In this document: one piece after another, positions 30,910-64,000 of the stretch
Layout: each line of letters starts with the position of its first letter
How positions within the stretch are numbered: position 1 is the first letter of the stretch
DNA from: Pseudoroseomonas cervicalis
GTDB taxonomy: Bacteria > Pseudomonadota > Alphaproteobacteria > Acetobacterales > Acetobacteraceae
NCBI RefSeq assembly: GCF_030818485.1
Contig: NZ_JAUTAJ010000005.1
Coordinates: forward strand, 62,001-126,000
Direction of reading: 5' to 3'
DNA length: 64,000 nucleotides
The notes under the pieces: generated by a model
What the model was told of the DNA's origin: nothing
The model's input: only the letters and a program-made list of their open reading frames with translations
Database searches by the model: none
Translations under genes and position numbers: made by a program

Positions 30910-30933
30910 CTCCGGAAATTGCCCAAAGAATGA

Positions 30934-31641: not shown

Positions 31642-31655
31642 GGCGTCTCTCCGGG

Positions 31656-31690
31656 CAGGGCGGGCATTGGCGCATGGCGCCCCCGCCCTG
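31656..31690. other. Compound inverted repeat between phosphoesterase and GntR genes
   Basis: Outer arms CAGGGCGGG (31656-31664) and CCCGCCCTG (31682-31690) enclose an inner hairpin GGCGC-ATG-GCGCC (31669-31681). On the minus strand there is no T-run after it, so it could be a weak terminator for the phosphoesterase gene or a regulatory structure ahead of gntR. Confidence 0.35.
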
Positions 31691-31722
31691 GCCAGGGCTT
31701 TTTCCGCGCGCAGCCGCCCCCG

Positions 31723-32637
31723 TCACGGCGCGGCCAGGGCCTCCGCCGGCCGCAGCAGCGCCGCCGGGTCGGGCATGGGCGGCAGGGTGGTGGTGGTGGA
31801 TGCGGCGTTGCGCTCGGTCCAGCCGGTCATGTCGATGACGAACATGCGCTCCGGCTCCACCAGCCTGTGCTCGGCGCGGCCATCGGCGTGCAGGCGCCAT
31901 TCCAGATAGCCGGGGCGCGGCAGGCGGCCATCCTGCTCCAGCCCGCGCCGCGCATTGACCATGGCGGTGGCCGGCGCCCAGATGATCGGCATGCCGCGAT
32001 GCTGCATCTGCCGGTAGACATGCAGATGGCCGCAGGCGATCGCCCGGACGCCGCCGGCGGCGCAGAGGCCGAGGAACTCCGCCCGCGCCGCATGCGGCAG
32101 GCAGGCGGTGGTGAAGCGGGCATCCTCCACATCCCCGGCGAAGGGCGGCATGTGCAGCAGCACGAAGACGTGGCGGTCCTCGCGGCTGGCCAGCGCCTCG
32201 CGCAGGAAATCGCGCTGCGCGGCTTCCTCGGGCAGGCCGCTGGCCATCAGCGCGCTGTCCAGCCCGATGATGCGCCAGGCGCCGAGATCGCGCCGCCACC
32301 ATTGCGGCCCGACATGGCGCCGCCAGGCGGCGATGCGCGCGGGCGTCACCGGCTGGTCGAGCCGCGCATGGCCCGGCGCCTCGCCGATATCGTGATTGCC
32401 CGGCACGGCCAGCCAGGGAATGCCGAGCGCCGCCATGCAGGCGGCACCATGCCGCAGATCATCCTCCGCCGCCGGGCCGTTGAAGGAGAGATCGCCGCCA
32501 TGCAGGATCAGCGAGGGCGGATCGGCCAGCATCGCCGCGCGGAAGGCGGCGAAGTTGACAGCGAAATAGCCATGGCTGGCGGAGAGATGCGTGTCGCTGA
32601 CCTGCACCAGGCGCAGCGGGGTTTCGGCGTGGCTCAT
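31723..32637 (-). CDS. Calcineurin-like metallophosphoesterase (CpdA-like)
   Basis: About 304 residues. All metal-binding motifs of the calcineurin-like fold are present in order: VSDTHL (D-x-H), ILHGGDLSFNG (G-G-D), VPGNHD (G-N-H-D), VLLHMPP and CGHLHVYRQ (G-H-x-H). It resembles CpdA/Rv0805-type cyclic-nucleotide phosphodiesterases and other class III phosphodiesterases; substrate not determinable. ATG 32637 overlaps the stop of the upstream binding-protein gene by 4 bp (ATGA), which fixes the start. The pairing suggests a phosphodiester-linked nutrient, which is inference only. Confidence 0.9.
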   Translation of the reverse strand: MSHAETPLRLVQVSDTHLSASHGYFAVNFAAFRAAMLADPPSLILHGGDLSFNGPAAEDDLRHGAACMAALGIPWLAVPGNHDIGEAPGHARLDQPVTPARIAAWRRHVGPQWWRRDLGAWRIIGLDSALMASGLPEEAAQRDFLREALASREDRHVFVLLHMPPFAGDVEDARFTTACLPHAARAEFLGLCAAGGVRAIACGHLHVYRQMQHRGMPIIWAPATAMVNARRGLEQDGRLPRPGYLEWRLHADGRAEHRLVEPERMFVIDMTGWTERNAASTTTTLPPMPDPAALLRPAEALAAP

Positions 32638-49642: not shown

Positions 49643-50977
49643 ATGATGGCAGCCACCGATATGCGGGCGGAGGCCGGGGCGCGTGCCCGCGAGCTGGCGC
49701 CCGAGCTGCGCTCCATCGTGCTGACCCACTACCCCGATGCCGAGACGCTGGATCTGATGCGCCCGGGCGAGGCGCTGAGCCTGGCCGAGCATCAGGCCGC
49801 CAACCGCGCCGTGGCCCAGGCCATGGCGGAGCAGGGGGTTGCCGTGCTGGTGCAGCAGGCCGAGCGCGGCGCCTTCCGCCGCTGGGCCGATGCCCATTCC
49901 GGTGCGGCGCCGGCGGGCTGGCGCGGGCGCGAGGCGCTGCTGCGCGGCGAGGCCGCCTGGCGCCTGCTGGGGCTGGACCCGGCGCGCCGCCCGGCGCCCG
50001 CCGCGCGCGGCGCCGGCACCCCGGCCGAGCGGCTGATGCGGCTTTTCGCCGGCGAGGATTCCGCCGCCTTCGAGCGCTGCGCCGAGGCGCTGATCGAGGA
50101 AGGGCGCGACGGCGTGCTGGAGCAGGCGGCGCGCCGCGTGGCGCAGCGCTATGGCGAGGAGGCGGCGGAGGAGTTCTCGCAGGAGCTGCTGGCCCTGGCC
50201 GCCGAGGGCGCGCTGGGCCCCTCCGGCTGGGCCGGGCTGGTGGCGCTGCCGGTGGCCCTGCCACCCGGCGAGCTGCCCGATGCGGCGGCGCTGATCGAGG
50301 GTTTCCTGGCGTCCGGGGCGCTGCCCGGCAATGTCGCGCTGCAGCTGCTGCCGGAGTGGCGCGCGGCCGAGGGCATCGCCGCCCTGACCCCCTGCCAGCT
50401 GCGCCAGGCGCTGCATCAGGCGCTGGCGGGCCAGGCGCCCGATTCGCTGCCGCCCGCCGCGCCCGAGGCGCTGCAGCAGGCGGGCTTCGGCGTGCTGGTC
50501 GGGCTGCAGCTCGATTGGGGTCTGCCGCTCTGGGAGGAGGTGCTGCGCGACGGCCTGCCCGCCCTGCCGGCCGAGGATGCGCCGCCCAGCCCGGAGGAGG
50601 CGGCCCGCGCCGAGGCTTTCGAGCGCTGGCGCCACGCCGCCTTCCAGGGGCAGGGCGGCTGCGTGCCGCTGGCCCTCGTCCCGCTGCCGGAGGTCGAGGC
50701 GGAGATCGCCGATTTCCTGGAGGAGGCGGGCGAACAGAGTGGCGGGCTGGACGAGATCCGCGATTTCGTCGAGGTGGCGCGGCAGGAGGCGCCGGGCGAG
50801 GAGCTGGTCTGCGTGCCGCGCGCCGGGGAGGGCGCGCTGCATCTGGCGCTCTACACCGCTTCCGGCCGGAAGCTGGACGAGATCAGCCTGGAGGCGGAGC
50901 GCCTGCCGGTGCCGCTGACCGAGATGCCGGCGCTGCTGGAGGGCATCGTGCCGCTGGCGCACCGCCCGCCGGGCTAG
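49643..50977 (+). CDS. Unknown 444-residue acidic, Ala-rich protein
   Basis: I do not recognise a family. ATGATG at 49643 follows GGAGAAGGCG. The protein has no signal peptide or membrane helix and looks cytoplasmic. It is rich in Ala, Glu, Leu and Arg, with many amphipathic helices and little beta. Features that stand out are MAEQGVAVLVQQAERGAFRRWADAH, a middle SQELLALAAEGALGPSGWAGLVALPVALPPGELPDAAALIEGFLAS, and a more beta-like end (GEELVCVPRAGEGALHLALYTASGRKLDEISLEAERLPVPL). It stands alone between a hybrid kinase and a convergent GntR gene, whose stop overlaps its own by 2 bp. Confidence 0.7.
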   Translation: MMAATDMRAEAGARARELAPELRSIVLTHYPDAETLDLMRPGEALSLAEHQAANRAVAQAMAEQGVAVLVQQAERGAFRRWADAHSGAAPAGWRGREALLRGEAAWRLLGLDPARRPAPAARGAGTPAERLMRLFAGEDSAAFERCAEALIEEGRDGVLEQAARRVAQRYGEEAAEEFSQELLALAAEGALGPSGWAGLVALPVALPPGELPDAAALIEGFLASGALPGNVALQLLPEWRAAEGIAALTPCQLRQALHQALAGQAPDSLPPAAPEALQQAGFGVLVGLQLDWGLPLWEEVLRDGLPALPAEDAPPSPEEAARAEAFERWRHAAFQGQGGCVPLALVPLPEVEAEIADFLEEAGEQSGGLDEIRDFVEVARQEAPGEELVCVPRAGEGALHLALYTASGRKLDEISLEAERLPVPLTEMPALLEGIVPLAHRPPG

Positions 50978-51666
50978 GTTCCGGCTTTGGCGGCGTCGCG
51001 GCGGCGCAGGAACTCCACCAGGGCGCGGCCGCCCTCCATCAGGTCGGCGCGCAGCGCGGCGCGCGCGGCCTGCGGGTCGCCGGCGCGCAGCGCGTCGAGG
51101 ATGTCGAGATGCCGGTGCCGGCCCGGATAGGCCGGCGGCGCCTCGGGGTAGTGGAAGGCGTGCACCGGCCCGTTGCGCAGCCACACCGTGTCGATGATGG
51201 CGCTGAGCTGCGGCATGCCGGCGGCGGCGTAGAGGCCGCGATGGAAGGCCCAGTTGGCCTTGTTGGCGGCGGCGCCTTCCCCCGCCGCCTCGGCGGCGGT
51301 GAGCGCGGCATGCGCCGCCTCCAGCGCGGCGATCCCGGCCGGGGTGATGCGCCGCGCCGCGGTCTCGGCCGCCAGCCCCTCCAGCTCCAGCCGGATGGTG
51401 CGCAGCTCCAGATATTCGTCATGCGTCAGTCCGGCGACCGTGATGGCGCGCGCCGCCTCGAAGCGCACTGCGCCGACGCGGGCGAGCTGCATGATGGCCT
51501 CGCGGATCGGCGTCTCCGACACCCCCATGCCGGCGGCGAGGTCGCGGATCTTCAGCCGCTGGCCGGGATGGAGCCGGCCCTCGAACAGCGCCGCCTCCAG
51601 CTCGGCATAGACCTTCATGGTGAGGTTGGAGCGCTCGACCGGCACCACCCTGGGCGTCACCGCCAT
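50974..51666 (-). CDS. GntR family transcriptional regulator, FCD type
   Basis: 230 residues. Winged helix: KVYAELEAALFEGRLHPGQRLKIRDLAAGMGVSETPIREAIMQLARVGAVRFEAARAITV. The FCD domain carries RLELEGLAAETAARRI, ANWAFHRGLYAAAGMPQL and GRHRHLDILDALRAGDPQAARAALRADL, with metal-binding residues apparent. It heads a minus-to-plus catabolic cluster and is the best candidate to bind the TGATATAGGATATATCA palindrome at 54668. Its stop overlaps the convergent unknown gene. Confidence 0.9.
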   Translation of the reverse strand: MAVTPRVVPVERSNLTMKVYAELEAALFEGRLHPGQRLKIRDLAAGMGVSETPIREAIMQLARVGAVRFEAARAITVAGLTHDEYLELRTIRLELEGLAAETAARRITPAGIAALEAAHAALTAAEAAGEGAAANKANWAFHRGLYAAAGMPQLSAIIDTVWLRNGPVHAFHYPEAPPAYPGRHRHLDILDALRAGDPQAARAALRADLMEGGRALVEFLRRRDAAKAGT

Positions 51667-51784: not shown

Positions 51785-53368
51785 TCAGCCCTGCTTGCGC
51801 AGGTTGTAGAAGAGCGGCATGCCCTTCAGCACCCCGCTCAGCGAGGTGCGGTAGGCCGTCATCTGCTGGAACATGCCGAGCGGGATATAGGGCACGTCCT
51901 CGAAGGCCTGCAGCTGGATGTCGCGGCAGAGCCGCTTCTGCTCGGCCTCGTCATTGCTGTCGATCCATTGCTGGCGCAGCTCCTCGATGCGCGGGCTGCG
52001 CGGCCAGCCGAACAGCGCCGCATCGCCCGCGCCGCGCAGATAGGAATGCGCCGCGGGCGTGCGCATGCCGAAGCCCACGGCGAAGTTGCAGTTGATGCTC
52101 CAGCCGCCCTGGTCGAGCGGCGCGCGGGAGTTCAGCTTCTGCGACACCGTGGCCCAGTCCAGCGCCTGGTAGTCGAGGTTGAAGCCGAGCTTGCGGAACA
52201 TGTCGCCCGCCACCTCGCTCATCGCGTTCATGATGGGAAAGTCGGTGGGCGCCGCCAGCACCACGCGCTCGCCCTTGTAGCCGGCCTCGCGCAGCGCCGC
52301 GCGCGCCTTGTCGAGGTCGCGCGGGCCGGTCAGCGCCGCCATGCCGGCATCGTTCGCCATTGGCGAATCCGGCTGGAAGTAGCCGATGCCGGCGCGCCAG
52401 AGCTGGGTGTCGGTGCCGGCCACCGCCATCATGAAATCCGCCTGGTTGACGGCGCCGAGCAAGGCGCGGCGGATCGCCGGATTGTCGAAGGGCGGGTGCA
52501 GATGGTTCAGGCGCAGCACGCCGAACACGCCCTGATTGTCCATCACCTCGACCTTGATGTTGCGGTTGCGCCGCAGCATCGGCAGGAAATCGGCCGGCGG
52601 CTGCTCCCACCAGTCGATCTCGCCCGATTGCAGCGCCGCCGCCGCGGTCGCCGCATCGGGCAGGGTGTGCCACTCCACCCGGTCGATATGCGCGACCTTG
52701 GGGCCGGACCAGAAGCTGGTGCTCCCCTGGCGCGGCACATAGCCCGGCGCGCGTTCATAGATGGCGCGCGAGCCCGGGATGCGCTCCCCGGCCAGGAAGC
52801 GGAAGGGGCCGGAGCCGATCGCCTCGGGCACCTGGGCGCTGGTGGGCAGCGCCGCATGGCGTTCCTGCATGATCACCGGCAGCTGCGGCGCCGGCTTGCC
52901 CAGCACGTCGGGCAGCAGGCGGAAGGGGCGCTTCAGGCGGATGCGCACCGCGCGCTCGCCCTGCGGCGCCATCTCCTCCACCTGCACGAACAGCGTCTGG
53001 CCATAGGTGTCACGCTGGCCCCAGCGGCGCAGGCTGGCCACCACATCCTGCGGCCGCACGGGCTGGCCGTCATGGAAGACCAGCCCCTCGCGCAGCGTCA
53101 GCACCCATTCCAGCTTGTCCTCGCTGAGCGTGTGGCCCTCCAGCATCTGCGGCAGGGGGCGGTAATTCTCGTCGACACCGAACAGCGTGTCATAGACCAG
53201 CGCCGCATGATTGCGGCTGACATAGGCATTGCTCTGGATCGGGTCGATCGAGGCCAGATCGGCCTGCGGCGCGAAGCGCAGCACCGAACGCGGATCGGCG
53301 GCCCGCGCCAGGCGCGGCGCGGCGAGGCTGGCGGCGGCCACCCCCAGCATCAGGTCACGGCGTCTCAT
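51785..53368 (-). CDS. Orphan ABC transporter substrate-binding protein, family 5 (peptide type)
   Basis: About 527 residues. Leader MRRRDLMLGVAAASLAAPRLARAA has a twin-arginine look (RRRDLM). Family-5 landmarks: LPQMLEGHTLSEDKLEWVLTLREGLVFHDGQPVRPQDVVASLRRW, AIGSGPFRFLAGERIPGSRAIYERAPGYVPR and NPAIRRALLGAVNQADFMMAV. ATG 53368 follows GGAGGACAACCG on the minus strand, fixing the start. It is downstream of the aminotransferase and has no permease nearby, so it may share permeases with another system. It probably binds the nitrogenous substrate of the divergent amidase/DMFase-like operon. Confidence 0.92.
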   Translation of the reverse strand: MRRRDLMLGVAAASLAAPRLARAADPRSVLRFAPQADLASIDPIQSNAYVSRNHAALVYDTLFGVDENYRPLPQMLEGHTLSEDKLEWVLTLREGLVFHDGQPVRPQDVVASLRRWGQRDTYGQTLFVQVEEMAPQGERAVRIRLKRPFRLLPDVLGKPAPQLPVIMQERHAALPTSAQVPEAIGSGPFRFLAGERIPGSRAIYERAPGYVPRQGSTSFWSGPKVAHIDRVEWHTLPDAATAAAALQSGEIDWWEQPPADFLPMLRRNRNIKVEVMDNQGVFGVLRLNHLHPPFDNPAIRRALLGAVNQADFMMAVAGTDTQLWRAGIGYFQPDSPMANDAGMAALTGPRDLDKARAALREAGYKGERVVLAAPTDFPIMNAMSEVAGDMFRKLGFNLDYQALDWATVSQKLNSRAPLDQGGWSINCNFAVGFGMRTPAAHSYLRGAGDAALFGWPRSPRIEELRQQWIDSNDEAEQKRLCRDIQLQAFEDVPYIPLGMFQQMTAYRTSLSGVLKGMPLFYNLRKQG

Positions 53369-53423: not shown

Positions 53424-54650
53424 TCAGAGCGCGGCGATGGCGGCGAAGCCGCGCTCGGCCGCCAGCAGCGCCCGGTCGATATCCGCCTCGGTATGCGCGG
53501 CCGACAGGAACATGTTGTGCCGGGGGTGGAAATAGACGCCCTCGGCCAGCGCCGCGCGGCAGAAGGCATCGCCCTTCTTCCAGCCGGCATCATCGTCGAA
53601 CAGGATCAGCGGCATCTGCGGCGGGCCGCTCTGGCGCAGCCCGATGCCGTGCCGCGCCGCCGCCTGCGCCAGCCCGTCGCGCAGCCGCGTGCCGAGGCGG
53701 TGCAGAAGCGCCGGCACATCGTCGCGCTGCGCCACGCGCAGCGTCGCCAGGGCGGCGGCCATCGGCACCGCCGCGCACCAGAAGGAGCCGGTGACGAAGA
53801 GCCGCGACGCCGCGTCGCGCAGCCATTCCGCCCCGGTCACCGCCGAGAGCGCATGGCCATTGGCGATCGACTTGCTCCAGGCGCAGAGATCGGGGCGGAT
53901 GCCGAGCGGCTCCCAGCTGCCGCGCAGGTCGAGCCGCAGGCCGGCGCGCACCTCGTCGATGATCAGCGGCGCGCCGGCGGCGTCGCAGGCGGCGCGGGCG
54001 GCGGCGGCGAAATCCGGATCCGGCATCTCCTGGTCCTGGCCGAGATCATGGCGGAAGGCGGAGACCAGGATGCCCGCCAGGTCGTCCCCCGCCTCGGCCA
54101 CCGCCGCGGCCAGGCTGTCCGTGTCGTTGAAGGTGTAGTGCAGCAGATGCGCACGATCCTCGGCGGTGACGCCGAGCAGCGAGGGCGAGCACCAGGGCAC
54201 CGCGCCGTGATAGGCGCCGCGCGCCACCAGCAGCTTGCGCCGCCCCGTGGCCAGCCGCGCCAGGGTGACGCAGCTGGTGGTGGCATCGGTGCCGTTCTTC
54301 TGGAACAGCGCCCATGCGGCGTGCGGCAGCATGTCGACCAGCGTCTCGGCCAGATCCACCATCACCGGAGCAGGGCCGTTCAGGCAGTCGCCCATGCGGC
54401 GCTGCCGCTCGGCGGCCTCCTCCACCTCGGCATGGCCGTGGCCGAGCAGGTTCGGCCCCCAGCTGCACATGAAGTCGAGATAGCGGCGGCCATCGGCATC
54501 CCAGAGATAGGCGCCCTCGCCACGCGAGAAGAATTGCGGATAGCCATCGGGCAGCTTGGCGGCGTGCAGATGGCCCCACATGCCGGAGGGCACGACGCGC
54601 GCGGCGCGCTGGCGGAGCGCGGCATCCTGGGAATTCAGCAAAGCGCTCAT
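53424..54650 (-). CDS. Class III pyridoxal-phosphate aminotransferase (glutamate-1-semialdehyde aminomutase-like)
   Basis: About 408 residues. PLP-binding Lys in DLCAWSKSIANGHALSAVTG (about residue 250), PLP-phosphate contact in FQKNGTDATTSCVTLARLATGRRKLL, PYHGA equivalent RGAYHGAVPW and acidic ring contact LIIDEVRAGLRLDL. The N-terminal FFSRGEGAYLWDADGRRYLDFMCSWGPNLLGHGH is typical of HemL-like class III enzymes. ATG 54650 follows AAAGGG; a longer upstream reading would run into the promoter palindrome. HemL itself is unlikely because of the catabolic context; a beta- or omega-amino-acid substrate is plausible. Confidence 0.9.
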   Translation of the reverse strand: MSALLNSQDAALRQRAARVVPSGMWGHLHAAKLPDGYPQFFSRGEGAYLWDADGRRYLDFMCSWGPNLLGHGHAEVEEAAERQRRMGDCLNGPAPVMVDLAETLVDMLPHAAWALFQKNGTDATTSCVTLARLATGRRKLLVARGAYHGAVPWCSPSLLGVTAEDRAHLLHYTFNDTDSLAAAVAEAGDDLAGILVSAFRHDLGQDQEMPDPDFAAAARAACDAAGAPLIIDEVRAGLRLDLRGSWEPLGIRPDLCAWSKSIANGHALSAVTGAEWLRDAASRLFVTGSFWCAAVPMAAALATLRVAQRDDVPALLHRLGTRLRDGLAQAAARHGIGLRQSGPPQMPLILFDDDAGWKKGDAFCRAALAEGVYFHPRHNMFLSAAHTEADIDRALLAAERGFAAIAAL

Positions 54651-54667
54651 CGGCCCTTTCCGCTCTT

Positions 54668-54684
54668 TGATATAGGATATATCA
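54668..54684. promoter_or_regulatory. Palindromic operator candidate between divergent catabolic operons
   Basis: TGATATAGGATATATCA is a perfect inverted repeat (7-bp arms, GGA centre) midway in the 68-bp gap between the aminotransferase ATG (minus) and the OtnK-like ATG (plus). AT-rich palindromes of this kind are typical sites for FCD-type GntR regulators. One site could control both operons. Confidence 0.65.
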
Positions 54685-54718
54685 TCTGACGCCATACGGG
54701 CTGGCAAGGGCTTTCGCG

Positions 54719-56011
54719 ATGACCGCTCCCTCCCTGATGCTCGCGGCGCTGGCCGATGATTTCACCGGCGCCGTGGAACTGGCGGCGATGCTGCGCGCGG
54801 CCGGCGCGCGCACCCGGCTGGTGGTCGGCGCCGATGCCATCCCGGACAGCGCGGGGGAGGCGGAGGCGCTGGTGGTGGCGCTGCGCAGCCGCGTGGCGCC
54901 AGCCGCCGAGGCGGAGGCCGAGGCCGAGCAGGCCGCCGCCGCGCTGCGGCGCCTCGGCGCGCGGATGCTGTTCCTGAAATACTGCGCCAGCTTCGACAGC
55001 CTCGATTCGGGCAATATCGGCAATGTGGCGGAGGTGCTGCGCCGGCATGGCCCGCCCGCGCCGGTGCTGTTCTGCCCGAGCTTCCCCGAGGCCGCGCGTT
55101 GCGTCTTCCGCGCGCATCTTTTCATCCAGGACCAGCTGCTGGAGCGCTCGCCGAAGCGGCACGACCCGCTGACGCCGATGACGCGCTCCGACCTCCGCCA
55201 GGTGCTGGCGCCGCAGACCACGCTTGGCGTGGGATACCTGCCCTATGAGGCGGTGCTGCAGGGGGGCGAGGCGATCCGGCGCCATGCGGAGGCGGAGCAG
55301 GCGGCGGGCCGCCCCTTCCTGATCGCCGATGCCATCACCGAGGAGGATCTGCAGCGCATCGCCTGGGGCGCGCGCGACTGGCCGCTGCTGACCGGCGGCT
55401 CCTCGGTCGCCGCCTGGCTGCCGCGCGCCTGGCAGGCGGAGGGGCGCATGGCGGCCACCCCGCCCGGCGCGCTGGCGCCGCTGCCCGGGCCCGGCGCGGT
55501 GCTGGCCGGCAGCTGCGCCGAGCGCACGCGCGAGCAGCTGGCCGAATTCGGCCGCCGCCACCCGGTGCTGGCGATCGACCCGCTGGAGGAGCCCGAGGCC
55601 GCCTTCGACAAGGCGCTGGCCTGGGCCAGCGGGCATCTAGGGTCGGCGCCCTTCTGCCTGACCACCTCGGCCGATCCGGCACGGGTGGCGGCGGCGCAGG
55701 CGGCGCTCGGCCCGATCCCGGCCGGGCGGCGGGCGGAGGCGCTGCTGGCCCGCCTCGGCGCCGCGCTGGCGCAGCGCGGGCTGCGGCGCCTGCTGGTGGC
55801 GGGCGGCGAGACCTCGGGCGCCGTGGTGCAGGGCCTGGGCATCCGCGAGCTGGAGGTCGCGCCCTATCGCGAGATCGGCATGGGGCTGTGCCGCGCGGAT
55901 GCGCCGGTGCCGCTGCTGCTCTGCCTGAAATCCGGCAAGCTCGGGGCCGTCGACATGTTCGAACGCACGCTGGCGGAGATGGAAGGGCAGGGCATGGGAA
56001 TGGCGCGATGA
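54719..56011 (+). CDS. otnK: Four-carbon acid sugar kinase family protein (OtnK-like, DUF1537)
   Basis: 430 residues. N-terminal signature LAALADDFTGAVELAAMLRAAGARTRLV (the L-A-D-D-x-T-G motif of the family), central FLKYCASFDSLDSGNIGNVAEVL with the K-x-x-S-x-x-S-x-x-x-G-N-I pattern, and C-terminal nucleotide-binding LLVAGGETSGAVVQGLGI and LKSGKLGAVDMF. Family members phosphorylate 3-oxo-tetronate, D-threonate and related C4 acids. The next gene is the OtnC-like decarboxylase, matching the known OtnK-OtnC pair. The start ATG 54719 is 35 bp after the palindrome. Confidence 0.9.
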   Translation: MTAPSLMLAALADDFTGAVELAAMLRAAGARTRLVVGADAIPDSAGEAEALVVALRSRVAPAAEAEAEAEQAAAALRRLGARMLFLKYCASFDSLDSGNIGNVAEVLRRHGPPAPVLFCPSFPEAARCVFRAHLFIQDQLLERSPKRHDPLTPMTRSDLRQVLAPQTTLGVGYLPYEAVLQGGEAIRRHAEAEQAAGRPFLIADAITEEDLQRIAWGARDWPLLTGGSSVAAWLPRAWQAEGRMAATPPGALAPLPGPGAVLAGSCAERTREQLAEFGRRHPVLAIDPLEEPEAAFDKALAWASGHLGSAPFCLTTSADPARVAAAQAALGPIPAGRRAEALLARLGAALAQRGLRRLLVAGGETSGAVVQGLGIRELEVAPYREIGMGLCRADAPVPLLLCLKSGKLGAVDMFERTLAEMEGQGMGMAR

Positions 56012-56664
56012 GCAATGCGGCGGAGAGCCTGCTCTGGCTCTACCGGGAGCTGGCGCGGCGCGGGCTGAACCATGGCAGCAGCGGCAATGTGAGCTGCCGC
56101 CAGGGCGATGCGCTGCTGATCACGCCGACCGGCGCCACGGCGGAGTCGCTGCGGGCGGAGCAGATGGTGGCCGTGCCGCTGGCCGGCCCCGCGGCGCCGG
56201 GCAGCGCGCCGTCGAGCGAATGGCCGATGCATGCGGCGGTCTATGCCGCCTGCCCCCGGGCCGAATGGGTGGTGCATTGCCATGCCGATGCCTGCACCGC
56301 GCTGGCCTGCCTGAATGAGGGTCTGCCGGTCTTCCACTACGCCGTGGTGGGCTTCGGCGGCAGCGCGGGCGTGCCCTGCGCGCCCTATGCCACCTTCGGC
56401 ACCCCGGCCCTGGCCGCGACGGTGACACAGACCATCCCCGGCCACACCGCCTGCCTGCTCGCCAATCACGGCATGATCTGCCACGGGCGCGACGCCGAGG
56501 GCGCGCTGGCCACCGCCATCCGGCTGGAGACACTGGCGCGGCAGTACCTGCTGGCGCGCTCGGCCGGCACGCCGCGCCTGCTCTCGGCCGAGGAGGTCGA
56601 GCAGGCCCGCCAGCGCTACCGGACCTATGGCCGCCCCACGCCCCCTGCCGAGGACCCCGCATGA
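56008..56664 (+). CDS. otnC: Class II aldolase/adducin family protein (OtnC-like 3-oxo-tetronate 4-phosphate decarboxylase)
   Basis: 218 residues. Phosphate-binding GSSGNVSCR near residue 25, acid residue in SSEWPMHAAVYAACP, Zn-binding His pair in VVHCHADACTAL and third His in LLANHGMIC. This matches fuculose-phosphate-aldolase-type enzymes and the OtnC subgroup, which decarboxylates the product of OtnK to dihydroxyacetone phosphate. ATG 56008 overlaps the kinase stop (ATGA). The tetronate dehydrogenase and isomerase normally found beside OtnK/OtnC are absent here, so the C4 intermediate may come from another reaction. Confidence 0.9.
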   Translation: MSNAAESLLWLYRELARRGLNHGSSGNVSCRQGDALLITPTGATAESLRAEQMVAVPLAGPAAPGSAPSSEWPMHAAVYAACPRAEWVVHCHADACTALACLNEGLPVFHYAVVGFGGSAGVPCAPYATFGTPALAATVTQTIPGHTACLLANHGMICHGRDAEGALATAIRLETLARQYLLARSAGTPRLLSAEEVEQARQRYRTYGRPTPPAEDPA

Positions 56665-58076
56665 GTGATTCCGAGATCGGCTATCTCTCCGCCGCCGAGC
56701 TGCTGGCGCAGTATCGCGCCCGCCGCCTCTCCCCGGTCGAGGTGGTGGAGGCGGTGCTGCGCCATGTCGAGGCGAGCGAGCCCGCGATCAACGCCATGGC
56801 GCGGCTGACGCCCGAGCACGCCCGCACCGCCGCGCGGGAGTCCGAGGCGCGCTGGATGCGCGGCGAGGCCAGGCTGCTCGACGGCGTGCCTGTCACCATC
56901 AAGGATCTGCAGCACACCAAGGGTGTGCAGACCGATTTCGGCACGAAGCTGATGCAGGGCACCATCCCGGATGTCGACGCGCCCTGTGTCACCCGGCTGC
57001 ACGAGGCCGGCTGCGCCATGCTGGGCAAGAGCACTGCCGCCGCCGAATGGGGCTGGAAGGGGGTCAGCCACAGCCCGGTCTATGGCATCACCCACAATCC
57101 GTGGAAGCGGGGCTACAATGCCGGCGCCTCCTCCTCCGGCGCGGGGGCGGGGGCGGCGGCGGGCTATGGCCCGCTGCACCAGGGCGGGGATGGCGCCGGC
57201 TCGATCCGCATGCCGGCGCATTTCAGCGGCGTCTACGGGCTGAAGCCGACGCATGGCCGCATCGCCAACTGGCCGATGTCGAACAACGACCTGGCGACGC
57301 ATATCGGGCCGCTGACCCGCACGGTGCGCGACGCCGCGCTGATGCTGCAGGCCATGGCCGGGCCGCATCCCTGGGACTACACGGCGCTGGAGGCGCCGCC
57401 GCAGGATTACGCGGCGCGGCTCGGTGACCTCGACCTGCGCGGCAGGCGCATCGCCTACAGCGCCGATCTCGGCCATGCGCGGGTCGATCCGGAGGTCGCC
57501 GCGCTGGTCGAGGAGGCGGTGCGGGCCCTCGAGGCGATGGGCGCGGTGGTCGAGGCGGTGACGCCCGCCTGGGGCCCGCAAGGGCCTGAGCTCGCGCGCT
57601 ATTTCTGGCCCGCCACCTTCAGCAGCCGGCTGAAATACCTCCCCGGGCGCGAGGCGGAGATGGATCCCGGCTTCGTCGCCATGATCCGCAGCATGGAGGG
57701 TCGCGGCGTCGCCGAATTCATGGCGATGCGCGAGCGCCGCTACGCCTATTGCCAGGCCATCCATGACTTCATGCAGGGCTATGACTTCCTGCTGACGCCG
57801 GCGGTCAGCGTCGCCGCCTTCCCGGCCGACCGTCTGCAGCCGGAGCACTGGCCCCAGCACCCCTGGGACTGGCTGAGCTGGGCCGAATTCAGCTACCCCT
57901 TCAACTGGTCCGGCAATCCGGCGGCCAGCCTGCCCTGCGGCTTCACCGCGGAAGGCCTGCCGGTCGGGTTGCAGATCGTCGGGCGGCGCTTTGACGATCT
58001 CGGCGTGCTGCAGGCCAGCGCGGCCTTCGAGGCGGCGCGCCCCTGGGCGCAGCACCGCCCGCCTCTGGCCGCCTGA
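56661..58076 (+). CDS. Amidase-signature family amidase
   Basis: 471 residues. Triad elements: Lys in GVPVTIKDLQHTKGVQTDFGT, cis-Ser in YNAGASSSGAGAGAAAGYG, and nucleophile Ser in GGDGAGSIRMPAHFSGVYGLKPTHGRI. GASSSGAG deviates from the common GGSSGG, but the three residues are in place. The C-terminus has FNWSGNPAASLPCGFTAEGLPVGLQIVG, typical of GatA-like amidases. ATG 56661 overlaps the aldolase stop (ATGA). It probably hydrolyses an amide intermediate made or used together with the DMFase-like protein two genes downstream. Confidence 0.9.
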   Translation: MSDSEIGYLSAAELLAQYRARRLSPVEVVEAVLRHVEASEPAINAMARLTPEHARTAARESEARWMRGEARLLDGVPVTIKDLQHTKGVQTDFGTKLMQGTIPDVDAPCVTRLHEAGCAMLGKSTAAAEWGWKGVSHSPVYGITHNPWKRGYNAGASSSGAGAGAAAGYGPLHQGGDGAGSIRMPAHFSGVYGLKPTHGRIANWPMSNNDLATHIGPLTRTVRDAALMLQAMAGPHPWDYTALEAPPQDYAARLGDLDLRGRRIAYSADLGHARVDPEVAALVEEAVRALEAMGAVVEAVTPAWGPQGPELARYFWPATFSSRLKYLPGREAEMDPGFVAMIRSMEGRGVAEFMAMRERRYAYCQAIHDFMQGYDFLLTPAVSVAAFPADRLQPEHWPQHPWDWLSWAEFSYPFNWSGNPAASLPCGFTAEGLPVGLQIVGRRFDDLGVLQASAAFEAARPWAQHRPPLAA

Positions 58077-58088
58077 GCGGAGCGCGCC

Positions 58089-58454
58089 ATGCTGGTGAAC
58101 GACCCCGCCGCGGCGCATTGGCCGGTCGATGCCACGCGGCTCGACCTGGCGCTGGAATTCCGCCGCCGCCCGCGTGGCCCGCATGGCGAGGCGCTGCAGA
58201 AGCTGCTGCACCGCATGCGCTGGTGGGGCGATGCCGATGGGCCGGCGCGCTGGGCGCTGCTGGTGGTGGAGCCCAACCGCCGCTGGATGCTGGCGCAGCT
58301 GCCGCGCCGGCGGGGCGAGGCGGTGCGCGTGCTGCCAAACCAGGTCTTCACCACGCTGGCGGCGGCGGAATGGGAGGTGTTCAAACGCCGCTGGGAGGCG
58401 CTGACCAGCGCGCCCCTGCCGCGCGAGATCGGCGAGGGAGAGGCCGGCACATGA
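58089..58454 (+). CDS. Small 121-residue protein of unknown function; candidate small subunit of the DMFase-like enzyme
   Basis: The reading begins at ATG 58089 behind GAGCGGAGCGCGCC. It has a basic, helical first half (LDLALEFRRRPRGPHGEALQKLLHRMRWWGD), a short beta segment (ARWALLVVEPNRRWMLAQLP) and a helical end (TTLAAAEWEVFKRRWEALTSAPLP). N,N-dimethylformamidase has a small alpha subunit of about 130 residues encoded directly upstream of the large subunit; size and position fit. Sequence similarity to that subunit is not obvious beyond an aromatic helix and LP near the end. Its stop overlaps the next ATG. Confidence 0.7.
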   Translation: MLVNDPAAAHWPVDATRLDLALEFRRRPRGPHGEALQKLLHRMRWWGDADGPARWALLVVEPNRRWMLAQLPRRRGEAVRVLPNQVFTTLAAAEWEVFKRRWEALTSAPLPREIGEGEAGT

Positions 58455-60775
58455 GCGATGAGAGCGATCCGCAGCGCCACCTGCTGCTCGATACGAATTC
58501 GGTGCTGGGCTATGCGTGGCCGATGATCGTCTCACCGGGGGAGGAGATCGGCTTCCACCTCTCCAGCGCGACGCTGCCCCGGGCGGAGGCCGCGCTGCTG
58601 CGGGTGCGCTGCGCCGATCCCGATCCGGACGGGCCGGGGCTGCAGCTCCATCCCATGCACTCGGCCATCGACGGTATGGTGGCGCTGCGCGAGCAGCCTT
58701 TGCATCCCGGCTCCTGGGCGGAGATCGCAGAGGCGCCGGCGCTGGAGGCGCTGCGCGGGCTGTCCGCCGCCGCCTTCCTCTGGCCCACCGCCCCCGGCCT
58801 CGCCTATGCGGGGGAGGCGGAGCAGACCGTGCTGGCACAATGGTGCGACGCGCGGGGCGAGGGCTGGCGGCTCGGCCTCGATGCCGAAGGCCGGCCGGAA
58901 TTCGTCGTCGCGGCGGGGGGCGAGACCTGGCGCGTCACCGGTGAGCGGCCCTTGCTGGAGCGCGAATGGGTGCTGCTGGGCGGGGTCTGGGACGGCGCCG
59001 CGCGCCGCCTGCGCCTGGTGCTGCGCAGCCTGGACCGCCAGGGCGGGCGCGACCGCACCGCCGAATACGACGCGCCCGGCCCGGCGGCGCTGCCCGCGCT
59101 GCCCGGCGTCGCGCTCTCCATGGCCGGCCATGCGGCGGGGCAGGGCAGGGGCGCGCGGCGCCTGCTGGACGGCAAGATCGACCGGCCGCGCCTGCACGCC
59201 CGGGCACTGGCGGCCGAGGCGCTGCACCGCCTCTGCGACGGGCTGCAACCGGCCGCCGCCGATCCGGATCTGCTGGGCGCCTGGGATTTCTCCAAGGGCA
59301 TGGCGACCGAGGCGGTGCAGGACCGCTCCCCCTGGCACCGCCATGGCGTGCTGCATCAGGGGCCGACCCGCGCCATGACCGGCGCCAATTGGGACGGCTC
59401 GGTGCGCGCCTGGACCGAGGCGCCCTGGCAATACGGCGCCATCCATTTCCACCGCGACGACATGGCGGAGGCCGGCTGGCAGGCGGATCTGCGGCTGCGC
59501 ATCCCGCCCGATTGGCGCAGCGGCTTCTACACGCTGCGGCTGCGCGCCAGCCCGCCGGGCGCGCCGCCGGTGGAGAGCCATGTCGCCTTCTTCCTGCGCG
59601 CGCCCATCGGCCGGCCGCGCGCGCGGCTCGCCTTCGTCGCCAGCACCGCGACCTTCCTGGCCTATGCCAACAGCGCGCTGCGCCTCGACCAGACGCATAC
59701 CGAGGCGATGCTGGAAGGGCTGCTGGCGCTGTCCGGCGACGATGCCTATCTGCAGGCGCATCGCGAGCTGGGCCTGTCCACCTACGACACGCATGATGAT
59801 GGCAGCGGCTGGTGCAGCAGCGGCGCGGCGCGGCCGATCCTGAACATGCGGCCGCTCGGCGCCACCTTCAACTACGGCAACGACACGCATATCCTCGACT
59901 GGCTCGAGCAGCAGGGCATCGATTACGACCTCATCACCGACGAGGATATCGACCGGCACGGGCTGCGGGTGCTGGCGCCCTATGCCTGCGTCATCACCGG
60001 CTCGCATCCCGAATATGTCTCGCGGCCGATGCTGGATGCGTTCGAGGCCTATCAGGCCGGCGGCGGGCGGCATCTCTATCTCGGCGGCAATGGCTTCTAC
60101 TGGCGCATCGCCTTCCACCCGGCACAGCCGCACCGGATCGAGATCCGCCGCGGCATGACCGGGCTGCGCACCTGGGAGGGCGAGGCGGGCGAGGACCACC
60201 TGGCCTTCACCGGCGAACCCTCCGGCCTGTGGCGTGGCCATGGGCGGCCGCCGCAGCGCCTGGTCGGCATCGGCATGGATGGCCAGGTCTTCACCGCCTC
60301 CGCCCCCTATCGCTGGCTGGAGGGGGCGCGCGACCCCTCGCTGGCCTGGCTGACCGAGGGGATCGACCTCGACGCGCCGCTCGGCGACCAGGGGCTGCGC
60401 GGCGGCGGCGCGGCGGGGCTGGAGGTGGACCGGGTGGAGCCGACGCTGGGCTCGCCGCCCGGCCTGGTGCGGCTGGCGACGGCCGACCGGCTCGGCTATG
60501 GCGGCGTGCCGGTGCCGGAAGAGGTGCGCACCCTGCATCGCGGGCTGATGGGCGACCAGAATGCCTGGCTGCGCGCCGATCTGGTGTTCTTCCCCACGGC
60601 GGCGGGCGGCGCGGTGTTTGCCACGGGTTCCATCGCCTATGCCTGCGCGCTGAGCTGCCAGGGCTATGGCAACCCGGTCAGCCGGCTGACCGGCAATGTG
60701 CTGCGCCGCTTCCTCGACCCCGCCCCCTTCCCGGCGACCCCGGAGGCCCCCCCGCGCCAGGGGCGCCATGGCTGA
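58451..60775 (+). CDS. N,N-dimethylformamidase beta-subunit-like protein
   Basis: About 774 residues. The first half is beta-rich and contains a LamG-like region (about 120-300: WVLLGGVWDGAARRLRLVLRSLD, LLDGKIDRPRLHARALAAEAL), followed by a flavin-unrelated catalytic domain resembling DMFase large subunit: ATFLAYANSALRLDQTH, STYDTHDDGSGWCSSGAARPILNMRP, FNYGNDTHILDWLEQQGIDYDLITDEDIDRHG and VITGSHPEYVS. From memory, the iron of DMFase is held by two Tyr and a Glu with a nearby His; Tyr in AYAN, Tyr in STYD (40 residues later) and the HPE of SHPEY (74-76 later) are spaced almost as in that enzyme. ATG 58451 overlaps the small gene (ATGA). Substrate unknown; probably an amide. Confidence 0.85.
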   Translation: MSDESDPQRHLLLDTNSVLGYAWPMIVSPGEEIGFHLSSATLPRAEAALLRVRCADPDPDGPGLQLHPMHSAIDGMVALREQPLHPGSWAEIAEAPALEALRGLSAAAFLWPTAPGLAYAGEAEQTVLAQWCDARGEGWRLGLDAEGRPEFVVAAGGETWRVTGERPLLEREWVLLGGVWDGAARRLRLVLRSLDRQGGRDRTAEYDAPGPAALPALPGVALSMAGHAAGQGRGARRLLDGKIDRPRLHARALAAEALHRLCDGLQPAAADPDLLGAWDFSKGMATEAVQDRSPWHRHGVLHQGPTRAMTGANWDGSVRAWTEAPWQYGAIHFHRDDMAEAGWQADLRLRIPPDWRSGFYTLRLRASPPGAPPVESHVAFFLRAPIGRPRARLAFVASTATFLAYANSALRLDQTHTEAMLEGLLALSGDDAYLQAHRELGLSTYDTHDDGSGWCSSGAARPILNMRPLGATFNYGNDTHILDWLEQQGIDYDLITDEDIDRHGLRVLAPYACVITGSHPEYVSRPMLDAFEAYQAGGGRHLYLGGNGFYWRIAFHPAQPHRIEIRRGMTGLRTWEGEAGEDHLAFTGEPSGLWRGHGRPPQRLVGIGMDGQVFTASAPYRWLEGARDPSLAWLTEGIDLDAPLGDQGLRGGGAAGLEVDRVEPTLGSPPGLVRLATADRLGYGGVPVPEEVRTLHRGLMGDQNAWLRADLVFFPTAAGGAVFATGSIAYACALSCQGYGNPVSRLTGNVLRRFLDPAPFPATPEAPPRQGRHG

Positions 60776-61019
60776 AGGCCGCGCCGGTGCGGCAATCTCC
60801 CCATCCCGCCGTCAAGGGCACAGAATGACCGCATGGCGTGGCGTTGGACGCAGTTCAGTCAAAGCCGCGTGAGCAGGGCGGCGACAAGGTAGAACAGGGC
60901 AGTATCCCGCCGGATTTCTTCGGTGCGAAGGGGGCGGGGGGGCGGATCTTGTGGGTTTGACTTCCTGAGGATAAGGTCGTGCTTCACGAGTATACGCGTC
61001 TGCCATCGGGAGCGTCACC

Positions 61020-62006
61020 ATGCCTCGCCAGGCTGCGCAGCATCTCCGGGAGGACGGCATCGCCGGGCTGATCACCCGGCATGCCATCGAGGCCATCTTC
61101 CTGCTCGACAGTGAGGGGCGCACCGTCTTCGCCAACCCCGCCGCCGAGGCGATGTTCGGCTGGTCCGCCGAGGAGCTGAGCGACCGCAAGCTGCACGACA
61201 TGCTGCACCATCACCATCCGGATGGGCGGCCCTTCCCGATGAGCGACTGCCCGCTCGGCCGTGTCTTCAGCACCGGCGAGAGCCTGCGTTCGCATGAGGA
61301 CGTGTTCTTCCACCGCGATGGCCGTCCCATCGACGTTTCCTGCTCCAACGCCGCCGTGCTGCGCGAGGGCAAGGTGATCGGCGGCGTGCTGATCGTGCGC
61401 GACATCTCCGAGCGCCGCCTCTACGAGCGTCACCGCCAGCTGCTGCTGGACGAGCTGAACCACCGCGTGCGCAACATGCTGACGGTGGTGCGCGCCATCG
61501 CCAACCAGTCGCTGACCGGCGGCGACATGGCGGCGGCGCGCGAGGCCTTCCTGGCGCGGCTGGATGCCATGGGCGATGCGCAGGCGCTGCTGATGCAGGA
61601 GGGCGGCATCGACGCGCCGCTGCGCCATGTGGTGGAGCACGCGCTGCGCCCCTTCCGCGCCGGGGAGGGCGCGGTGCGGCTGGAGGGCCCGCCCGTCAGC
61701 CTGCCGCCGCGCAAGGCGCTGACCCTGTCCATGGCGGTGCATGAGCTGGCGACCAACGCCACCAAATATGGCGCGCTGTCGCGGCCGGGCGGGCGGGTGC
61801 TGATCAGCTGGTCCGGCCAGGACACGCCCGCCAGCCCGCTGCGCCTGGTCTGGCGCGAGGAAGGCGGGCCGCCGGTGCGGCCGCCGCGCCATATCGGCTT
61901 CGGCACCCGGATGATCCGCCAGGCCCTGGCGGTGGAGTTCGAGGCGGAGATCGACCTGGATTTCGAGCCGGACGGGCTGGTCTGCACCCTGCGCCCGGCG
62001 GCCTGA
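61020..62006 (+). CDS. PAS domain HWE-family sensor histidine kinase
   Basis: 328 residues, soluble. One PAS domain (about 15-135: HAIEAIFLLDSEGRTVFANPAAEAMFGWSAEEL, DVFFHRDGRPIDVSCSNAAVLREGKVIGGVLIVRDISERR) is followed by the HWE/HisKA_2-like H-box LLLDELNHRVRNMLTVVRAI and an ATPase domain (LTLSMAVHELATNATKYGALSRPGG, VWREEGGPPVRPP, GFGTRMI). The ATPase lacks the usual F-box, as is normal for HWE kinases. The 244-bp gap upstream holds its promoter; no clear consensus was identified. No receiver domain, so it must act on a separate regulator. Confidence 0.92.
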   Translation: MPRQAAQHLREDGIAGLITRHAIEAIFLLDSEGRTVFANPAAEAMFGWSAEELSDRKLHDMLHHHHPDGRPFPMSDCPLGRVFSTGESLRSHEDVFFHRDGRPIDVSCSNAAVLREGKVIGGVLIVRDISERRLYERHRQLLLDELNHRVRNMLTVVRAIANQSLTGGDMAAAREAFLARLDAMGDAQALLMQEGGIDAPLRHVVEHALRPFRAGEGAVRLEGPPVSLPPRKALTLSMAVHELATNATKYGALSRPGGRVLISWSGQDTPASPLRLVWREEGGPPVRPPRHIGFGTRMIRQALAVEFEAEIDLDFEPDGLVCTLRPAA

Positions 62007-62240: not shown

Positions 62241-64000
62241 TCAGGCGATCACGGCATGGGCCATGCGGCCTTCCTGCAGGCCGAATTGCAGGAAGTGCAG
62301 CAGCGGATTGACCTCCGCCTCGGCCACATCGGCATTGGCGGCGAGATAGGCCGCCGTGTCGAAGCCGGCGCTGGCGGCGCGGCCCTCCCGCCAGCCGAAG
62401 GCGTTGTAATGCGCCAGCGCGTCCAGCCCCGCCCCGGCGACATCGGCATTGGCCGCCAGGTAGTAGCCGGTGTCGAAATAGGCATTCGGGTCGCGCTGCT
62501 CGTCGCGGCCGAATTCCTGCCAATGGCCGCGCGCATCCAGCCCGGCCCGCGCCACATCGGCATTGGCCAGCAGGTAGTAGCCGGCATCGAAGCCATCCGC
62601 CTCCACCTGGCCGACCGCGGCGGCGATGCCGCGGCCCTCGGCCCGGCCGAAGCCCAGGTAATGCGTCAGCGGATCGATGCCATAGGCGGCGACATCGGCG
62701 TTGCGCGCCAGATAGGTCTCACCATCGAACAGGGCGGAAGGATCCCGCCCCTCCTTCCAGCCGAACTGCACATAGTGGTCGAGCGGGTTGAGGCCGGCCG
62801 CGGCCACGTCGCGATGGATGGCCAGATAGGCCTCGCCGTCGAACAGCGCGTTGGGGGCGCGGCCTTCCTTCCAGCCATACTCCCGGTAATGCGCCAGCAG
62901 GTCGGTGCCGGCGGCCAGCACATCCGGGTTCTGCGCCGCGTAATAGAGCGCATCCAGCAGCGCATGGCCGTGGTCGAGCCTGACGCTGCCATCGGCGAAC
63001 TCGATCCGCTCGATGCCGCTGGCGCGGATCACCTCGCCCGAGGCACGCAGCGTGATGCGGCCGACCGCATGATCCACCGCATAGGCGGCGATGCCCTGGC
63101 CCAGCACCAGCGTGTCGAAGCCGGCGCCGCCCTCGACGATGTCGGCGCCGCCCAGGCCCTGCAGCCGGTCATCGCCGGCGCCGCCGCGCAGCATGTCGCG
63201 CCCGGCGCCGCCGGTCAGCGTCTCGCCGCCATCGCCCGCCTGCTGCTCCGCCGCCAGCACCCCATCCTCGCGCAGCGCCAGGTTCTGGATGCGGCCGTCG
63301 CCGCCGGCGCCGGTATCGGCCCCGGCGAAGGCGCTCTCGCGCGTGCCATGCTCGGCCAGCAGATATTCGGCCAGCGCGTCCTGCTCGGTGCCGCGGGTGG
63401 CGAAGCCGCTGCGCCCCTCGCCCAGCAGCGCGCTGCCCTGCAGATCGATGCGGTCGGTAGCGTAGAGGCCGATCGGATAGCCATCGCCGCCATCGGCCAG
63501 GTAGCTCAGCGTGGTCATGCGGATGCCGCGCGCCGCATCGCCCTGCAGCACGCCATCCTGCAGGAGGGTGTCGAGGACGAAGCCATCCTCGTCGACGATC
63601 GCCAGGTTCCGGATGCGGCTGCCGGCCACCGCCACGCTGCCATCGGCATTCAGCCGCTGCGCCGTGCCGGCGGGGTCGTAGGAGAAGACGATGCCGCCCA
63701 CCTGGCCGAAGGAGCCCGGCGTGGCGCCCGGCGCGACACCGGCCACCGCATGCTCGACGATGCGCAGCAGCGCCTCGGCCGAGACGGTGACGATGGAGAG
63801 CGCATTGTTGAAGCGCAGCGAATTCTCGATGTCGAGCTGGCTGACCGCGCCTTCCGGCTTGCCGGCCTCCGGGTTGGCGGCCGGCGGCAGCTCACCCGCC
63901 TCGGCGCCCGTGCCGATGGTGCCGATCTCGGCGCGGATGCCGCCGCCATTCTTGATCGAGACGCTGACCGCGGCGTCGACCTGGCGCGCCAGCCAGAGAT
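62241..64000 (-). CDS. Secreted 5'-nucleotidase/RTX protein, C-terminal part (continues past the right edge)
   Basis: The frame is open to the window edge and encodes at least 585 residues. The visible part starts within a 5'-nucleotidase C-terminal domain: LWLARQVDAAVSVSIKNGGGIRAEI (substrate-binding N-G-G-G-I-R), LDIENSLRFNNALSIVTVSAEALLRIVEHAVAG and GSFGQVGGIVFSYDP. A spacer with DGRIQNLALREDG is followed by RTX calcium-binding nonapeptides (GGAGRDMLRGGAGDDRLQGLGGADIVEGGAGFDTL, about 63100-63220) and then six ~38-residue repeats. RTX motifs imply type I secretion and Ca-dependent folding outside the cell. Probable role is scavenging phosphate or nucleosides at the surface. Confidence 0.88.
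   Translation of the reverse strand, partial: LWLARQVDAAVSVSIKNGGGIRAEIGTIGTGAEAGELPPAANPEAGKPEGAVSQLDIENSLRFNNALSIVTVSAEALLRIVEHAVAGVAPGATPGSFGQVGGIVFSYDPAGTAQRLNADGSVAVAGSRIRNLAIVDEDGFVLDTLLQDGVLQGDAARGIRMTTLSYLADGGDGYPIGLYATDRIDLQGSALLGEGRSGFATRGTEQDALAEYLLAEHGTRESAFAGADTGAGGDGRIQNLALREDGVLAAEQQAGDGGETLTGGAGRDMLRGGAGDDRLQGLGGADIVEGGAGFDTLVLGQGIAAYAVDHAVGRITLRASGEVIRASGIERIEFADGSVRLDHGHALLDALYYAAQNPDVLAAGTDLLAHYREYGWKEGRAPNALFDGEAYLAIHRDVAAAGLNPLDHYVQFGWKEGRDPSALFDGETYLARNADVAAYGIDPLTHYLGFGRAEGRGIAAAVGQVEADGFDAGYYLLANADVARAGLDARGHWQEFGRDEQRDPNAYFDTGYYLAANADVAGAGLDALAHYNAFGWREGRAASAGFDTAAYLAANADVAEAEVNPLLHFLQFGLQEGRMAHAVIA
62253..62962 (-). repeat. Six ~38-residue tandem protein repeats in the RTX protein
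   Basis: Consensus FD-x-x-YYLA-x-N-x-DVA-x-AG-x-DPL-x-HY-x-x-FGW-x-EGRDP-x-A. Copies begin at ALLDALYYAAQNPDV, LFDGEAYLAIHRDV, LFDGETYLARNADV, GFDAGYYLLANADV, YFDTGYYLAANADV and GFDTAAYLAANADV; the third is stretched by about eight residues. Similar repeats occur at the ends of large alphaproteobacterial RTX proteins. Confidence 0.85.

Follow-up and report, generated by a model that had tools for sequence, protein, structure and literature searches.

What compound would a bacterium take apart with a dimethylformamidase (DMFase)-like iron hydrolase, an amidase, an aminotransferase, a kinase and an aldolase, all encoded side by side? The question is raised by a gene cluster in a 64,000-nucleotide stretch of the Pseudoroseomonas cervicalis genome (contig NZ_JAUTAJ010000005.1, positions 62,001 to 126,000), here called the window. 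An operon on the plus strand (54719-60775) encodes the kinase, a class II aldolase, the amidase and the small and large subunits of the DMFase-type enzyme; genes overlap by 4 bp at the kinase/aldolase, aldolase/amidase and small/large subunit junctions, and 12 bp separate the amidase gene from the small-subunit gene. Divergently transcribed genes on the minus strand (54647-50974) encode a class III aminotransferase, a family-5 (peptide-type) binding protein without adjoining transporter subunits and an FCD-type GntR regulator, and the gap between the aminotransferase and kinase genes is 71 bp long (54648-54718). The original prediction had listed the three divergent genes, all of which are confirmed, as well as the kinase, aldolase, amidase and DMFase-like large protein of the operon, but had not mentioned the small subunit (58089-58454).

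We tentatively favor the view that the cluster breaks down an amino-polyol that is N-acylated or N-formylated and that it does so under the control of the GntR regulator; in this catabolic unit, the amide would be turned into an amine, a hydroxyketone and a phospho-ketose and finally into dihydroxyacetone phosphate (DHAP) and an aldehyde. First, the two-subunit iron hydrolase, perhaps together with the amidase, would cut the amide to give a 2-amino-3-hydroxy compound. The aminotransferase, which resembles FumI, would convert the amine to a ketone, and the resulting hydroxyketone would be ketose-like. The kinase, a divergent DUF1537 protein, would then phosphorylate a primary hydroxyl, and the aldolase, which is of the FucA type, would cleave the phospho-ketose to DHAP and an aldehyde. 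Some relatives encode a flavin monooxygenase or a thiamine pyrophosphate (TPP) enzyme, either a fused E1 or a split transketolase, in place of the kinase and aldolase or alongside them, and they differ in their amide hydrolases as well. We infer this order of reactions and the substrate class from gene families, their linkage, conserved residues and a shared palindrome, all of which were observed directly.

Amide hydrolase and aminotransferase

The large subunit contains a PF20254 domain (303.8 bits, with a cut-off of 27), the only match to this domain in the genome. Its matches to two solved structures, those of dimethylformamidase (6lvb, E 4.4e-124) and of N-acetyl-(R)-beta-phenylalanine acylase (8huy, E 1.7e-123), were of nearly the same strength. 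The iron ligands of DMFase given in sections of PMC7686228 are Y399, Y440 and E521; the counterparts of these three and of the DMFase residues H519 and N547 in the window's protein (Y405, Y445, E521, H519 and N547) are aligned and invariant across eight orthologs. The same sections state that the DMFase large subunit is inactive by itself. A search of the PDB with the single sequence of the window's small subunit gave no match; a 30-sequence profile matched 6lvb_B (E 2.2e-6), and 6lvb_B was also the top fold match (probability 1.00, E 2.1e-3) of a structural model with a predicted local distance difference test score (pLDDT) of 85.6. These matches rule out a large subunit that lacks its partner. 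A model of the large subunit, built from 8 sequences, was poor (pLDDT 42.1) and was not used. Because the operon also encodes the DMFase small subunit, the amide hydrolase is, as judged from its sequence, a DMFase-type enzyme that has both subunits and retains the published iron site, and its activity is predicted.

This enzyme shares with the DMFase of Paracoccus sp. DMF (6lvb) the two subunits, the PF20254 domain, the two Tyr and one Glu iron ligands and H519/N547, but the full-length match contains many substitutions and the gene context is an aminotransferase/kinase/aldolase operon. The 8huy acylase, which is as similar to the large subunit as DMFase is, shows that the family can accept N-acyl amines; it differs in that one molecule name covers its listed chains. 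Amidases 79% identical to that of the window adjoin the DMFase pair in two related loci, L065 and L066.

The closest solved relative of the aminotransferase is FumI, the aminopentol aminotransferase of Sphingopyxis sp. MTA144 (6hbs, E 4.9e-128; runner-up, E 2.2e-49), with 195 of 396 aligned residues identical (49%) and no gaps. Glutamate-1-semialdehyde aminomutase (HemL) was rejected as an assignment, with 187 bits against the NCBIfam hemL cut-off of 527. Hydrolyzed fumonisin B1 is a 2-amino-3-hydroxy compound whose 2-amino group FumI transfers to pyruvate (PMC2933618, in part); unlike the window's aminotransferase, FumI is not reported to be linked to a DMFase in the portions of the literature cited here. 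The aminotransferases of L065 and L066 are 61 and 63% identical to FumI and group with it in a tree, at a fork (97/64) that does not count as well supported. Relatives of the aminotransferase are common: of 7,998 proteins scored, 5,723 reach E <= 1e-30.

Related loci and a shared palindrome

A DMFase-like match was found in 97 of 299 family genomes. Besides the window's own, seven matches have 64-69% identity; other full-length matches reach at most 45%, and some short partial ones 52%, among the matches listed. A named collection gave 242 confirmed DMFase loci, of which the best 80 were kept. Following the order of the list, these were divided into 41 close loci (L065-L105, with a best segment of 44-75%) and 39 others; this split and the identity thresholds (for the aminotransferase, at least 45%) were set after a first view of the locus contents. 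The counts include near-duplicate species and are not counts of independent events, and L079, L085 and others stop at contig ends, where absent genes may be missing sequence. Nearest to the window's DMFase in this collection are those of L065 (75%) and L066 (72%).

The small subunit is encoded in 40 of the 41 close and 36 of the 39 other loci. A FumI-like aminotransferase is present in 21 of the close loci and in none of the others, a linkage beyond what chance would give. The close loci also contain GntR genes (21/41), PotA-like plus PotD-like transport genes (30/41) and a penicillin-acylase type hydrolase (14/41). A fused E1 is encoded in 11 of them, kinase plus aldolase in 8, a split transketolase in 4 and a flavin monooxygenase in 2, and the aminotransferase accompanies all 11 E1, all 8 kinase/aldolase and both monooxygenase loci; of the four split-transketolase loci, one (L071) lacks it. 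One or more ketone-cleaving modules occur in 16 of the 21 aminotransferase-bearing loci; L077, L079, L085, L092 and L093 have none. The neighborhood comparison proposed with the original prediction found the cluster partly conserved elsewhere, rather than a gene order conserved nowhere, and an arrangement unique to the window is ruled out by these loci. Three further features of the related loci were noted. A two-part protein (SnoaL-like plus flavin monooxygenase-like) is encoded between the FumI-like aminotransferase and the amidase in L065 (4647-6467) and L066 (4638-6449). In L077, from Bradyrhizobium, an M24 peptidase (prolidase or ectoine-hydrolase-like; 12326-13648, minus strand) lies between DMFase and aminotransferase. 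A split transketolase and an AroE-like dehydrogenase lie near the DMFase or aminotransferase genes in L082, L089, L097, L071 and L202.

We also picked 20 aminotransferase loci from the 67 matches outside the window's own and inspected their surroundings in stretches of at most 20 kb. L188 encodes GntR, amidase (74%), binding protein, aminotransferase (79%), kinase (66%) and aldolase (65%), and L202 encodes an AroE-like protein, aldolase, kinase, aminotransferase, GntR and split transketolase; neither has a DMFase. L204 has a split transketolase and L191 a fused E1. A penicillin-acylase type gene is found, without a DMFase, in six of the 20 (L189, L190, L191, L192, L196 and L198). P. cervicalis itself lacks an ortholog of the fused E1 (best match 43%, in separate genes); next to the related loci, the cluster in the window seems rearranged and reduced.

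The aminotransferase/kinase gap contains the palindrome GATATATC, which occurs once in the window (0.06 sites expected) and twice in the whole 4.89-Mb genome; the second site (L265) is beside no cluster gene, the sole query match there being a short-chain dehydrogenase/reductase (SDR) at 35%. The palindrome was first noticed and then counted with control groups. The 21 DMFase loci with the aminotransferase have 44 sites (0.71 expected), with at least one site in 19 loci, and the sites listed adjoin the starts of penicillin-acylase, PotA-like, aminotransferase and binding-protein genes. In the controls, we found 7 sites (1.11 expected) in the 20 close DMFase loci without the aminotransferase, 3 (3.74 expected) in the 39 distant DMFase loci and 1 (0.90 expected) in 20 canonical OtnK loci. 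A further control, the 20 loci picked for their aminotransferase, has 13 sites (0.92 expected); one of these loci (L200) does carry a DMFase. The 56 sites that were profiled come from 29 picked sources and have their core in common by selection. In the window, the divergent gap with its palindrome fronts both operons, and the same arrangement is found in L188 and L202. We suggest GATATATC as a candidate operator to which the FCD-GntR protein may bind; we know of no binding motif for this regulator, which reached none of the cut-offs of the 11 NCBIfam equivalogs listed.

Several findings weigh against the proposed amino-polyol unit. The aminotransferase is missing from 20 of the 41 close DMFase loci, and L098, L100 and L105, which are among these, have a D-serine-dehydratase-like pyridoxal phosphate enzyme, an SDR and a gluconolactonase-like gene instead. 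Of the 20 picked aminotransferase loci, 16 have neither kinase plus aldolase nor transketolase nor E1 nearby (the four with such a module are L188, L191, L202 and L204); a universal pathway is therefore disfavored, and our confidence in the amino-polyol unit and in its sphingoid version, discussed below, is reduced for the same reason. The palindrome was not found in L065 or L066. Two loci that encode orthologs of the kinase (L297 and L298) lack an adjacent aminotransferase, and the palindrome lies several kilobases from the kinase gene in each. Three more tested fumonisin transaminases share 61-74% identity with two reported ones, according to part of PMC9858248; because the window's aminotransferase has 49% identity to FumI, it lies outside this proven range. 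Finally, the window kinase exceeds the cut-off of the OtnK model, if narrowly (NF043035, 368 versus 350 bits), and the aldolase is below the cut-offs of the fuculose/ribulose-1-phosphate aldolase models (166.8 versus 264, 158.2 versus 300 and 152 versus 400).

Could the cluster be a loose scavenging regulon, in which amidase, DMFase-type enzyme and aminotransferase draw nitrogen from different amides and amines, and an unrelated sugar module, made up of kinase and aldolase, uses the same promoter region? The differing amide hydrolases of the relatives, the peptide-type binding proteins, the many aminotransferase loci without a module and the kinase/aldolase genes of L297 and L298 would agree with it. 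However, a single palindrome-bearing gap serves the aminotransferase and kinase operons here and in L188 and L202, and the aminotransferase is present in every kinase/aldolase and every E1 locus of the close set. We consider such a regulon unlikely, although it deserves to be kept in mind.

Kinase, aldolase and a proposed C4-acid route

Kinase and aldolase had been predicted to be an OtnK/OtnC pair that sends a C4 acid to triose phosphate. OtnK is the 3-oxo-tetronate kinase and OtnC the 3-oxo-tetronate 4-phosphate decarboxylase. Among OtnK matches in 289 class genomes (E <= 1e-40), unbroken genes score at least 518 bits with the sole exception of the window kinase; a split gene pair in G379 scores 366 and 141 bits. 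P. cervicalis also encodes two canonical OtnKs (616 and 608 bits). For the comparison of residues, L054 and L057 (genomes already represented by L074 and L080) were removed first, leaving 11 aminotransferase-linked rows. Twelve kinase positions separate these 11 from 20 canonical kinases (each group at least 80% uniform), and they include positions 20 (D to E), 90 (S to A) and 149 (H to D), which are fixed in both groups. Five orthologs of the window kinase (56-66% identity) occur in 249 family genomes, and the next match has at most 48% among the matches listed. All six family genomes with a kinase of this type (the window's included) encode the aminotransferase, versus 56 of the 249 overall (E <= 1e-100). 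The kinases of L297 and L298, loci not selected for linkage to the aminotransferase, retain the DDFTGAVELA and KYCATF motifs, whereas DDFTGATDLA and KYCSTF are found in 5 of 5 canonical loci fetched alongside. The aldolases of L297 and L298 retain the FucA-type Ser-Ser-Glu motif, and both genomes have the aminotransferase elsewhere. L297 also encodes a split transketolase and an L-idonate-dehydrogenase-like protein that is under its cut-off.

The window aldolase fails the OtnC model (111.5 bits versus a cut-off of 250), whereas the aldolase adjoining a canonical OtnK in the same genome passes it with 287 bits. Its best NCBIfam models are FucA (166.8 bits) and RU1PAld (158.2 bits), and it contains the FucA-type PSSEW motif. 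At position 70, all 11 aminotransferase-linked aldolases have Ser, as in FucA, and 14 of 15 aldolases adjoining canonical kinases have Lys; the sole exception (L252) is itself FucA-like. Compared with what we take to be the catalytic and phosphate-site residues of FucA, N27, T41, G42, S69, S70, E71, H90, H92, Y111, F130 and H154 are conserved; T26 is replaced (S24), and the counterpart of Tyr209 is one place off, at 207. With its low score, its Ser at 70 and a genuine OtnC elsewhere in the genome, OtnC is rejected as the identity of this aldolase. LtnD-like or OtnI-like neighbors gave no match in the window or in the 10 other aminotransferase-linked kinase loci, which is weak evidence because just 5 canonical OtnK loci out of 20 are matched by the LtnD query and none by the OtnI query. 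One canonical OtnK locus of P. cervicalis (L237, C2:375000-388999) contains an LtnD-family-like stretch and an aldolase above the OtnC cut-off.

Taken together, the sequences make it unlikely that kinase and aldolase form an OtnK/OtnC pair. What they share with such a pair is the kinase family, the kinase-aldolase gene order and a kinase score above the cut-off, but the kinase is a divergent paralog, the aldolase has FucA-type residues and the canonical pair is encoded elsewhere. The L-fuculose-1-phosphate and ribulose-1-phosphate aldolases are the best NCBIfam and PDB matches of the aldolase, which keeps their catalytic and phosphate-site residues; unlike them, it is under every aldolase model cut-off and is partnered with a DUF1537 kinase. 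Of the earlier proposal, the amide-cleaving catabolic unit is supported, but the C4 acid processed by OtnK/OtnC is not, given a FucA-like aldolase and a divergent kinase with altered signature residues.

A C4-acid route, in which the amide is hydrolyzed and the acid passes through the 3-oxo-tetronate kinase and the decarboxylase to DHAP, and in which the aminotransferase might yield the 3-oxo acid directly from 3-amino-2,4-dihydroxybutanoate, would gain from the kinase score and from the class II aldolase directly after the kinase; with the failed OtnC score, Ser in place of Lys, two canonical OtnKs and an OtnC elsewhere in the genome and the 12 separating positions, it appears improbable. Breakdown of an N-acyl beta-amino acid, along the lines of the reactions of N-acetyl-(R)-beta-phenylalanine acylase and beta-phenylalanine aminotransferase, is highly improbable: 8huy matches the large subunit as well as DMFase does and 4ao9, the latter aminotransferase, is among the matches (E 5.9e-32), but the FumI match is far stronger, the small subunit is of the DMFase type, and such a pathway has no step known to us that would call for the kinase or the aldolase.

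Substrate, surroundings and meaning

TPP-dependent E1 and transketolase enzymes cut a ketol between C2 and C3, a flavin monooxygenase cuts at the ketone, and a kinase plus FucA-type aldolase cut at C3-C4 of a ketose 1-phosphate. Several of the gene sets beside the aminotransferase include such ketone-cutting enzymes; a 2-amino-3-hydroxy amine freed from an amide would explain these sets. The kinase/aldolase variant would further need hydroxyls at C1 and C4, that is, a 2-amino-1,3,4-triol pattern, which occurs, for example, in phytosphingosine. The best-fitting substrate is an N-acylated 2-amino-polyol, possibly sphingoid-like, and triose phosphate is a likely product, formed by retro-aldol cleavage and not by decarboxylation. 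In a sphingoid salvage pathway, a DMFase-type deacylase would free the amine, the aminotransferase would form the 1,3,4-trihydroxy-2-ketone of a phytosphingosine-type head group, and kinase and aldolase would release DHAP and a fatty aldehyde, while FumI-clade relatives with substrates lacking the 1-hydroxyl would use the flavin monooxygenase. We regard this specific version as quite unlikely. A lipid substrate is disfavored by the peptide and Pot types of the binding proteins, by the DMFase pocket, which part of PMC7686228 describes as narrow, and by the fact that no lipid gene was noticed in the cluster.

The features of the cluster are compiled in Table 1. The start of the aminotransferase was picked by homology; an alternative TTG start at 54707 is also open. 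A scan of 54500-61100 gave one promoter-like site (0.2 in shuffles) and two overlapping terminator-like sites (0.8 in shuffles), none of them at the aminotransferase/kinase gap, and Rfam and tRNA scans of the window gave no matches.

Table 1. Features of the cluster, in window coordinates
Feature	Position	Strand	Basis
FCD-type GntR regulator, probable regulator of cluster	50974..51666	-	PF07729 4.9e-25, PF00392 1.3e-13
Family-5 extracellular solute-binding protein	51785..53365	-	PF00496 1.9e-58; closest solved chain 8vdx, E 3.3e-154
FumI-like class III aminotransferase	53424..54647	-	6hbs E 4.9e-128; HemL cut-off failed
Palindrome GATATATC, candidate operator in aminotransferase/kinase gap	54676..54683	none	Site counts versus expectation
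DUF1537-family kinase, divergent paralog of 3-oxo-tetronate kinase	54719..56011	+	PF07005, PF17042; NF043035 368 bits
Class II aldolase, FucA/ribulose-1-phosphate aldolase type	56008..56664	+	PF00596; NCBIfam ranking; PSSEW motif
Amidase-signature enzyme	56661..58076	+	PF01425 6e-94
DMFase-type small subunit, 121 aa	58089..58454	+	Profile and fold match to 6lvb_B
DMFase-type large subunit	58451..60775	+	PF20254 3e-90; 6lvb, 8huy matches

A 444-aa protein encoded next to the GntR gene (49643-50977, plus strand) matches nothing in Pfam or NCBIfam at E <= 0.01. A PAS-HWE histidine kinase gene lies 3' of the operon (61020-62006, plus strand), and a second HWE-like stretch is found at 48481-49074. 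A long open frame on the minus strand (62241-63998) runs to the window edge and contains a segment of roughly 45 residues several times over, with a recurring HYxxFGWxEGR-like pattern. Weak matches to family-5 binding proteins, amidase and GntR are grouped at 27653-34124 (minus strand), perhaps a second amide/peptide uptake cluster.

DMF (dimethylformamide), the tested DMFase substrate, is a man-made solvent, and to our knowledge the natural substrates of DMFase-type iron hydrolases are largely open. The kinase illustrates a likely naming error: it is narrowly above the cut-off for 3-oxo-tetronate kinase but is partnered with an aldolase other than the known partner. One clade of DMFases is tied to a FumI-type aminotransferase and, in some loci, to ketone-cleaving enzymes and a common palindrome, which makes its substrate class testable. 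If the sphingoid reading were true, the DMFase family would gain a natural, non-solvent substrate class.

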